64,000 nucleotides of DNA, from the NCBI GenBank assembly GCA_016782225.1, contig JADDOW010000074.1:1-64000 (forward strand). Direction: 5' to 3'. The notes beneath the pieces are model-generated. The model searched no databases. It saw only the letters and a list, made by a program, of their open reading frames with translations, and was not told the origin of the DNA. The DNA is from Nitrososphaeraceae archaeon (GTDB lineage: Archaea > Thermoproteota > Nitrososphaeria > Nitrososphaerales > Nitrososphaeraceae). Shown here one piece after another: positions 60,293 to 64,000 of this stretch (the first letter of the stretch is position 1; every line of letters starts with the position of its first letter). The position numbers and the translations under genes are program-made.

Positions 60293-60736
60293 ATGGTAAT
60301 CAATAGCGAGCTCCTTGAACAACGCAAAAAGATTTCCGACCGACGTCCAAAATTTAAACGACAAGAAAGCTGGAGGTATAAAAGATTAGCGACCAATTGG
60401 AGAAAACCAGATGGCATTGATAATAAAATGCGTAAACAATACTCTGGAGTTCCACCACTAGTCAAGATTGGCTACGGTGGTCCAAAACTAGCTCGTGGGT
60501 TACATCCTTCAGGTTTTGTAGATAATTTGGTTTATAATGTTAATGATTTGTCCCTATTGGATAAAAACAAAGATGCAGCACGCATTGCTCATACTGTAGG
60601 GAATAAAAAACGATTGGAAATAATCGAAAAAGCTAAATCATTGGGAATCAAATTGCTTAATGGAACAAAAGGCAAAACAAAAACGGAAACATCATCTGAA
60701 ATAAAGGATTCTGATAAAAAAGAACAAAAGGTGTAA
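60293..60736 (+). CDS. rpl32e: ribosomal protein L32e
   Basis: RRPKFKRQESWRYKRLATNWRKPDGIDNKMRKQYSGVPPLVKIGYGGPK. Confidence 0.93.
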   Translation: MVINSELLEQRKKISDRRPKFKRQESWRYKRLATNWRKPDGIDNKMRKQYSGVPPLVKIGYGGPKLARGLHPSGFVDNLVYNVNDLSLLDKNKDAARIAHTVGNKKRLEIIEKAKSLGIKLLNGTKGKTKTETSSEIKDSDKKEQKV

Positions 60737-61188: not shown

Positions 61189-61689
61189 TAATTCCCATTT
61201 CTTTTGATTTTTAACATAATTTTTGCTTTAATTCTTACAATTAACTGTTTGTTTTTCTAAGTCTCTGGTTATTCTTTTTTTAGCCTATTTCGATTGTGAG
61301 TACTCTTTAAGGAAATTGTTTTTTTTTTGGTTGGTAAGATTATGCCGTATCTGATTTTGCTGAAACCATCCGTGTTGTTAAAACAGTTGTTTGATTTCTT
61401 CAGCTGATTTGTTTTTTTTTTGGTGCTCAGAATGGTTGTTGAAAAAACATCATGGAAAGACTCCGTCGATTCAAATGCCCATCAAGTAATACTAAATTAT
61501 ATATAATTTCATAGTATTATGATAGTGTTACATTTGCATTGGAAAACGCCTGTAGCTCTAGGTATACCGGACTTATAAGAATTCACCTTAAATATATCTA
61601 TCGCTGAATCTTATTTAAATGTCATATAATTCTACAACGTAGTGTACGACATAGTCTGATGGAAAGTTTTTTACTTGCCTTTGTTTTGC

Positions 61690-62300
61690 TGCAAAAGAAA
61701 AGGACAACCAGAAAAAATATTGAAAATATTGAAAACTTTGGAGACAGTAACAATGTTTGATGAACTAGCAAAAGAGTTTTTGGCTAAACCAGACTCTACT
61801 ACTCCAAACAAAGAACAAATAGTTATGTCCTGATTCACCAAAAGAATGGTTTTGTGTGCGTGAAGCTACATTATACAAGAAATACAAGATTTTTGATGAC
61901 ACAGAAGAAGGAAATGGGAAACATGCGATCCGTTAGAATCCAAAATGTTAAACTCAATTCAATTCAATTCAATGGTATGGGCTGCAAAACCTGAAATATT
62001 TCAATGATACTGAAACAATGGCACAAGGGGAAGGATAAAAAAATTGAATTCAGGGAATCCGATAGCAGACGACATTTTAAAAACTGAGGATTAAATGAGC
62101 AGTGTTTAGACACCTCACAATCTTTTATCAAGACTTGTTTATTAGAAGATGCAAGGAAATGATATCTCTACTGATGATGATACAATTGCCCTAGTTGCCG
62201 AAGTTAGAAAAATACGTGGATTGATTCACAACCTACCGCCGAAAAATGAAACCCCTTTTTCGACACCCGATGGGGATGCAGAACCCAATTTTATATAATG
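61690..62300 (+). pseudogene. decayed coding remnant(s) of unknown identity
   Basis: Short coding-like fragments MFDELAKEFLAKPDSTTPNKEQIVMS*, CPDSPKEWFCVREATLYKKYKIFDDTEEGNGKHAIR*, MQGNDISTDDDTIALVAEVRKIRGLIHNLPPKNETPF separated by stops and frame changes. Confidence 0.4.
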
Positions 62301-62614
62301 ATATTTTTCACCCATTCTTAAACACCCAAAAATAACGCCAAATGATTGGACAGAACACCTGTTTCTCACAAATTTATTTACTCTATCCTCTTTGTGTTTA
62401 GATCTGTATTTTTTCTTCTCTTGAATTAATATTCAATTTCATTTTCATTAATTGATAATAACCATATTGCCTGTAATTACTATCCTCATCATTTCTTATT
62501 TTAACAAAATTTATCTTGGATTTTTCAATTCTTATATTTTTTAATATTTTAAAATGTTTAATTCTGTTTCTTAAATATTTGATGAGGGATGCTTTTATGG
62601 AAATGGTTTGCCTA

Positions 62615-63490
62615 TCAAATAAAAATGATCTCTAAATCTTGAGAGTTCAAAATGTTTAATACTTTCTCTTTATCTTTGCCTAATCCTTTATCATCGACAT
62701 ATATGTGATTTATTTTTTCGATGCTTTTTCCTTTGACTTGTTTCATTATTTGTTCATTTATGAAAGCAAGATTGTACTTGCTGATTACGGGCCCAAAGGC
62801 TACATTGGAGAAAAGAATCAGTTCATTATATTTTTGTGGATAGTGATTACCACCAATTCCTATACCTATGGTTGTGTTGTTATTCTCAATGTATTTTTCA
62901 ATATCTATTATAGATTCCAATACACTTTTACATACTATTGACGCAGTTGTTTTGTTTACCCATTGATTTTCTGAGGAACCTATTTCTATAAATAGGATTG
63001 GATTTACCAATGAGGTGGGTCCATGATGAGTGGCCTCTATTGTCAAATCATAGCCAAAAAGTTCTTGCCTTTTTTCATATATCTTTTTCATATAGACTTT
63101 TTGAAAGGATGGAAATGTGTTTCCAATTTCCTTTGGCTTCCCACCTGATAAAACGATGTCTGAAAAATTTCCAGTGCTATGAGAAGTCAAAGTTGGGGTT
63201 TTACTTTTAGACGCATGTTTTGATAAAAATATTACCATGTTTTCTTTTGGTATTATCCCATCTAGATTATTGATATTAATTAAATCTCGATTTGTAATGA
63301 CTAGTGCAGTATTTAAATGCTTTAAAGAACCCAATACTTTAAAATCTGTATTTGTATTGTTATGATTATTCTGATTTTCTATGATGCCTTTGTTTGTTAT
63401 TTCAAATTCTTCGTTATCTAATAGATAATTTATCATTGTATTACTTGCTGGATCTTTTGTGGATGTTAGTATTGTAAAATTCTTTATCAA
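62615..63490 (-). CDS. dtdA: D-aminoacyl-tRNA deacylase (DtdA/GEK1 type)
   Basis: LTIEATHHGPTSLVNPILFIEIGSSENQWVNKTTASIVCKSVLESI; GIGGNHYPQKYNELILFSNVAFG. Confidence 0.9.
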   Translation of the reverse strand: MIKNFTILTSTKDPASNTMINYLLDNEEFEITNKGIIENQNNHNNTNTDFKVLGSLKHLNTALVITNRDLININNLDGIIPKENMVIFLSKHASKSKTPTLTSHSTGNFSDIVLSGGKPKEIGNTFPSFQKVYMKKIYEKRQELFGYDLTIEATHHGPTSLVNPILFIEIGSSENQWVNKTTASIVCKSVLESIIDIEKYIENNNTTIGIGIGGNHYPQKYNELILFSNVAFGPVISKYNLAFINEQIMKQVKGKSIEKINHIYVDDKGLGKDKEKVLNILNSQDLEIIFI

Positions 63491-63608
63491 TAAAATAAAA
63501 TCTGTATTTATTATTTTATCTTTTATATTAAAATATATTGGTATTCGACATCAAATGCATTATAAACTTATAAATTCCAAATAACTAAGTTTAATGATTT
63601 CAATAAAT

Positions 63609-64000
63609 ATGCCAAAAAAGCTCACTGATGGTGATGGAGACTTGGACTTGATGGATATTGATTCCGATAATACTGATGTTGTTGATGATGACATCGACAA
63701 TGATGATGATGCTCTTGGGGTAAATACTGATAAATTGTCTCAAAATAAAAATAAAAATAAAAGTAAATCCCTCTCCATTTTACAAGAAGATACGAAAAAG
63801 GGTAAAAAAAACAACAAACAGGAAAACCAAAAATTGGTAAAGAGTGACATAGAAACTGAATCGTCACATTCAGAAGAAGGGGATGATGATTCGGATTCTA
63901 AATTTTTTGTCGTTAGGGTTTCTGGTGGTCAAGAGAGTTTGATAGCTTCTACGCTTTATAGTAGATTATCGTCAAAAAAGATTGAAGGCATTTACTCTAT
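63609..64000 (+). CDS. spt5: Spt5/NusG-like transcription elongation factor with acidic N-terminal extension (partial, runs off window; alternative in-frame ATG at 63594)
   Basis: MPKKLTDGDGDLDLMDIDSDNTDVVDDDIDNDDDALG...SHSEEGDDDSDSKFFVVRVSGGQESLIASTLYSRLSSKKIEGIYS; the last part reads like the start of an NGN domain. Confidence 0.7.
   Translation, partial: MPKKLTDGDGDLDLMDIDSDNTDVVDDDIDNDDDALGVNTDKLSQNKNKNKSKSLSILQEDTKKGKKNNKQENQKLVKSDIETESSHSEEGDDDSDSKFFVVRVSGGQESLIASTLYSRLSSKKIEGIYS

Follow-up and report, generated by a model that had tools for sequence, protein, structure and literature searches.

An acidic, low-complexity N-terminal tail before the NGN domain of Spt5 in the archaeal family Nitrososphaeraceae, best read as a single gain

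The window analysed here is the whole stretch of 64,000 nucleotides that forms the first part of a contig (C39, 69774 bases) of a Nitrososphaeraceae archaeon. At its 3' end, an ORF was found to be open from position 63594 past the end of the window, with its stop at contig base 64334 (Table 1). The complete product (246 amino acids from 63594, or 241 counted from the conserved start) was identified as Spt5, with the Spt5-NGN domain (PF03439) matched at residues 103-183 (E=1e-17; 64.3 bits against a cut-off of 22.4) and a single C-terminal KOW domain (PF00467) at residues 195-224 (E=8.8e-7; 29 bits against a cut-off of 22.3). The protein scored 96 bits with the NCBIfam equivalog of archaeal Spt5 (TIGR00405), above the cut-off of 69.95, and did not reach the cut-off of the bacterial NusG equivalog (TIGR00922; 19.4 bits versus 135.7). 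These results bear out the original prediction of an Spt5-like protein with an NGN domain, with the sequence past position 64000 confirming NGN and KOW together and the model searches favouring Spt5 over NusG. The product was the sole NGN match in its genome, an Spt4 gene was found on another contig (C54), and the closest named relatives were Candidatus Nitrosocosmicus and other Nitrososphaeraceae.

On the 3' side, spt5 is followed by genes for L11 and a thermosome subunit, while on its 5' side the divergent dtdA gene occupies the spot held by secE in relatives from other families. The window also carries, together with spt5, a gene for an archaeal histone. Two further observations were made on this part of the window. 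The approximately 1.4 kb between the genes for L19e and dtdA (61190-62614) were found to hold no ORF of at least 60 amino acids, no tRNA and no Rfam match, and ribosomal protein L32e (60293-60736) was found to possess a charged low-complexity C-terminal tail (KGKTKTETSSEIKDSDKKEQKV) past its Pfam domain.

Table 1. Features of the window discussed in the text, with positions given on the window unless stated otherwise.
Feature	Position	Strand	Basis or remark
Archaeal histone gene, only histone match in the genome	39038..39268	-	PF00808, E=2.4e-12; candidate partner only
dtdA (D-aminoacyl-tRNA deacylase), divergent 5' neighbour of spt5	62615..63490	-	PF04414, E=9.7e-58
Two adjoining TATA-like elements, TTATAAA	63560-63566 and 63568-63574	+	3' copy kept upstream of spt5 family-wide
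Upstream in-frame ATG and four more codons (MISIN)	63594..63608	+	Probably not the start
Spt5 N-terminal tail, acidic, low-complexity, 97 aa	63609..63899	+	Family-wide; weak purifying selection; predicted disordered
Acidic-hydrophobic N-terminal segment (MPKKLTDGDGDLDLMDIDSDN...), the most conserved stretch of the tail	63609..63680	+	Genus alignment identity
Lys/Asn-rich middle of the tail, little conserved	63741..63836	+	Sequence and genus alignment
NGN domain of Spt5	63900..64000, onward to contig base 64142	+	Pfam; KOW and stop at 64334 lie beyond the window

The first in-frame ATG of the ORF, at 63594, was found to be common only to this sequence and that of the nearest species (L033), with the remaining members of the genus having either no such codon or an unrelated upstream ATG (MILLMPK). 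The ATG at 63609, which opens with MPKK, MPKN or MPKD, was kept in all genus members with a readable start. Since the MPK start is kept through the genus and the upstream codon is confined to the nearest species, the true start is most likely to be 63609, and the earlier choice of the first ATG was not sustained. The nearer of the two TATA-like elements lies 38 nt 5' of the ATG at 63609; among genus members the centre of the TTATAAA element was placed 36-38 nt 5' of the MPK ATG, and other Nitrososphaeraceae genera were found to carry AAATTTATAAA upstream of spt5 at a median of 35 nt from the start. In archaea, the usual spacing between TATA element and transcription start site (TSS) is about 26 nt. 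A TSS is thus predicted near 63597, approximately 10 nt 5' of 63609, with the tail lying entirely inside the transcript; use of the more upstream element would place the TSS near 63590. The element proposed by the original prediction is conserved and the predicted transcript does include the tail as it had suggested, but the position of the element and the usual spacing point to a transcript with a short leader (about 10 nt) instead of a strictly leaderless one.

When the first 97 residues of the 48 long ORFs within the window were compared, the N-terminus of Spt5 ranked lowest in hydrophobic fraction and also in entropy. AlphaFold2, run on 19 relatives, gave residues 1-93 without structure (pLDDT <50), with the confidence of the NGN part of the same model likewise only moderate. 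Mean pairwise identity within the genus was 0.69 over columns 1-12, 0.43 over columns 13-24 and 0.20-0.37 in the middle of the tail, returning to 0.69 in the last six columns, which are acidic and end in DS. Of 55 tails, 48 carry a D/E-S pair where the tail meets NGN. An acidic-hydrophobic pattern like DDLDLIDLNDD was present within the first 35 residues of 41 of the 55, compared to 13.3 +/- 2.9 after shuffling of those residues, a count to be read as a lead and not as a test, as the pattern was picked after viewing the sequences and these are related. No second protein with such a tail was found in the genome.

The selective constraint on the tail was examined using 15 non-overlapping pairs of relatives, giving a pooled pS of 0.26 and pN of 0.125 (ratio 0.48), with pS exceeding pN in 15/15 pairs (binomial P=2e-15). 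Values of dN/dS were mostly 0.25-0.77 for the tail and mostly 0.01-0.07 for the Spt5 core, and the differences in tail length between relatives were found to preserve the reading frame. Read from these alignments, the tail is translated and loosely constrained, with its start and the NGN junction being best kept. The acidic, low-complexity extension that had been noted at first is thereby upheld, at approximately 97 amino acids and, judging by the synonymous excess, as translated sequence.

Searching 70 Nitrososphaeraceae genomes with PF03439 gave matches in 62, and an extended open frame was identified in 60 of these. The two apparent exceptions were due to a contig edge (L006, genome G038) and a frameshift (L035, genome G015); the latter was considered as a short tail and rejected, a full-length tail being readable in another frame. 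Readable tails of the family measured about 45-123 amino acids with a net charge of -4 to -21, and were present in every Nitrososphaeraceae genus sampled. Spt5 of families f2 and f3 and of 11 further families of the order (13 in all) starts 4-12 amino acids before NGN. This agrees with the statement of the original prediction that typical archaeal Spt5 begins almost at NGN, and the alignment of thaumarchaeal Spt5 that it proposed places the tail family-wide in Nitrososphaeraceae and finds it absent in the 13 other families. No paper on Spt5 tails in Thaumarchaeota was found in the literature. Spt5 of the Nitrosocosmicus kind was seen in two records titled Nitrosopumilus sp. (L034, L038), and a third record, titled 'bacterium' (L054), belongs to Nitrososphaeraceae; these are probably misnamed MAGs.

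The search was extended to 299 genomes of the phylum, with open-frame lengths taken for roughly the top-scoring half of the matches, 30 of these being read and the longest open frames being read one by one. Among the matches read, a tail was found elsewhere in the phylum in one genome only (G237, of family f2 in the same order). The other long open frames were rejected as acidic tails, many of them resembling secE in another frame. The exception, a 43-amino acid acidic extension of Spt5 (L168, G237:C1:591000-593000), consists of a 21-bp unit repeated in tandem almost perfectly (VQSTEEVQSTEEV...), and secE has kept its place directly 5' of this spt5. It is a separate, second and recent birth of an acidic tail through repeat expansion. 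An extension at the other end of Spt5 was also seen, in three proteins of phylum family f6 (L157, L159, L169), where it follows KOW and ends in a conserved KTDIFEAF.KLEEE.

A tree was constructed from 119 Spt5 cores (147 columns, with the tail left out), in which all 56 tailed proteins of the family were found to form one clade with support of 96/82. The tree needs one change of tail label, a value as low as this being obtained in 0/500 shuffles. As the tailed proteins form one clade with a single label change, the tail is best read as having been gained once, at the base of Nitrososphaeraceae. The genomic position of spt5 was compared along with this. In those genomes of the other families in which both genes were found, secE (TIGR00327) is the immediate 5' neighbour of spt5 and has the same orientation. 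In Nitrososphaeraceae, secE (matched in 24/25 genomes) was away from spt5 in every genome with a match, including the one-contig genomes G007, G008 and G009; in the genome studied here, it lies on C68 and spt5 on C39. With secE elsewhere in all matching genomes of the family and the tail at the family base, both changes therefore fall on the same branch. Each is one event, making this a sensible coincidence rather than statistical proof, and the link could be due to chance. The upstream neighbour of spt5 was seen to vary within the family (by eye, over 700 bases), being often dtdA and elsewhere other genes, and the place has therefore been rearranged more than once after the loss of secE.

Among PDB entries, the best matches were to canonical archaeal Spt5 (Pyrococcus furiosus 3P8B, Thermococcus kodakarensis 9BCT and Methanocaldococcus jannaschii 4ZN1). 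The protein resembles these (TIGR00405) in having one NGN, one KOW, a single gene copy and an Spt4 gene in the genome. It differs at the N-terminus, where those chains have 1-3 residues ahead of the matched NGN and this one has a 97-amino acid acidic tail, and in that spt5 is not preceded by secE. The bacterial NusG chain of PDB 8E74 (238 amino acids) is probably likewise a housekeeping NusG/Spt5 protein with extra residues before NGN, because its KOW match sits about 50 residues further in than that of Escherichia coli NusG; unlike the Nitrososphaeraceae protein, it is a bacterial NusG and independent. Actinobacterial NusG N-terminal extensions of the 8E74 type are probably acidic.

According to Evrin et al. 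2022 (PMC8886531), eukaryotic Spt5 is unique in that its NGN is preceded by a tail that is acidic and for the most part unstructured. This region, Spt5N, is essential in yeast and uses conserved residues to bind H3-H4, the histone-binding residues in Schizosaccharomyces pombe being F146, E150 and V153, i.e. F...E..V (PMC8886531). The tail of the family is similar in being acidic, predicted unstructured and directly before NGN, but the archaeal protein has one KOW and no C-terminal repeats, and its tail has a separate origin. A profile of the tail matched no Spt5 chain of the PDB up to E=5, in a test limited by low complexity. The F...E..V pattern was found in 0/55 tails, and a relaxed form in 2/55 compared to 1.8 in shuffles. 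A match of the tail profile to SLX4IP (PDB, E=3.3) was dismissed as chance, and one of the whole protein to Atg16 (phmmer, residues 8-91, E=0.04) was taken as a chance match due to low complexity. With no homology found, F...E..V absent and sister families tail-less, the resemblance to the eukaryotic tail is judged to be convergence, not ancestry. Of the two possibilities that the original prediction had raised, independent acquisition is supported, and an evolutionary link, which shared position and composition alone would favour, is extremely improbable given a single gain inside the order, in a comparison that covered archaeal Spt5 of this phylum.

In T. kodakarensis, the NGN domain of Spt5 binds Spt4 and polymerase and contacts the nontemplate strand immediately ahead of the upstream edge of the bubble, and the KOW domain extends to FttA (PMC11616081). 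As NGN lies near nontemplate DNA and the tail is fused to its first strand, the tail should project beside the DNA. The explanation that we favour, at a probability of roughly 0.5, takes up the translated, family-wide tail of single origin on an NGN-KOW protein, and the coincident loss of secE linkage, and holds the tail to be a tethered acidic arm on RNA polymerase. On this reading, a normal Spt5 gained a disordered acidic extension of approximately 45-120 amino acids once, in the Nitrososphaeraceae ancestor, on the same branch on which spt5 was separated from secE and came under its own TATA promoter; this release from the upstream gene may have given spt5 room to grow at its 5' end. NGN and Spt4 would together clamp RNA polymerase in the usual way, while the tail, attached to NGN and flexible, would extend alongside the DNA and make transient, charge-driven contacts with a basic partner, mainly via the conserved acidic-hydrophobic N-terminal segment. 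This putative partner may be a chromatin protein, whether histone or other, or a basic patch on polymerase or ribosome, and the effect of the contact is likewise putative. The variable middle of the tail would act as a spacer. Against a full arm function, this middle is fast-evolving, and a large share of it may serve as spacer or be close to neutral.

A more specific possibility is that the tail acts as an acidic histone chaperone tethered to polymerase, catching archaeal histones during transcription and depositing them again, and that it has converged independently on the Spt5N arrangement thought unique to eukaryotes. Its position and character match those of the H3-H4 binder essential in yeast (PMC8886531), and histone genes are present in nearly all tailed genomes (24/25 Nitrososphaeraceae genomes searched). 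However, the invariant yeast residues are missing from every tail, and most of the tail-less families of the order also encode histones. In T. kodakarensis, whose Spt5 is without a tail (from PDB chain length and match), Spt4/5 has already been reported to speed up transcription of histone-bound DNA (PMC10899632). A histone role is possible but not indicated, and the chaperone reading is regarded as rather unlikely. An autoinhibitory, nucleic-acid-mimicking tail, which would limit the off-target binding of RNA or DNA by folding onto a basic surface of NGN, KOW or Spt4, would fit the net negative charge kept family-wide despite poor sequence conservation, as a charge-only function would predict; the lack of structure in the AlphaFold2 model, the Lys-rich stretch also held by Nitrosocosmicus tails and an N-terminal block conserved beyond charge make this unlikely.

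It is also unlikely that the tail is mostly a non-functional by-product, in which upstream DNA turned coding once spt5 quit the secE operon and is tolerated as a solubility tail. The coincidence with the operon break, the high dN/dS and the range in length from 45 to 123 amino acids are in keeping with this, but no tail loss was confirmed in the whole family, a synonymous excess is present and the N-terminal segment is conserved. That the acidic stretch is an untranslated leader, annotated as protein through a wrong start codon, could be suspected from its low complexity and poor conservation; it is made very improbable by the extended frame in the family genomes, by the same synonymous excess and by a promoter that sits before the tail.

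The bearers of the tail are one family of soil ammonia-oxidising archaea, with the rest of the order, among the proteins read, being without a tail of the family type. A whole histone-bearing archaeal family has, in front of NGN, an acidic tail of the sort that had been described as unique to eukaryotic Spt5 (PMC8886531). With this tail gained once and kept on an otherwise minimal Spt5, the family offers a small natural system for studying whether such an arm on the elongation factor helps polymerase with chromatin, and how an arm of this kind may arise when a gene leaves its operon and gains its own promoter.
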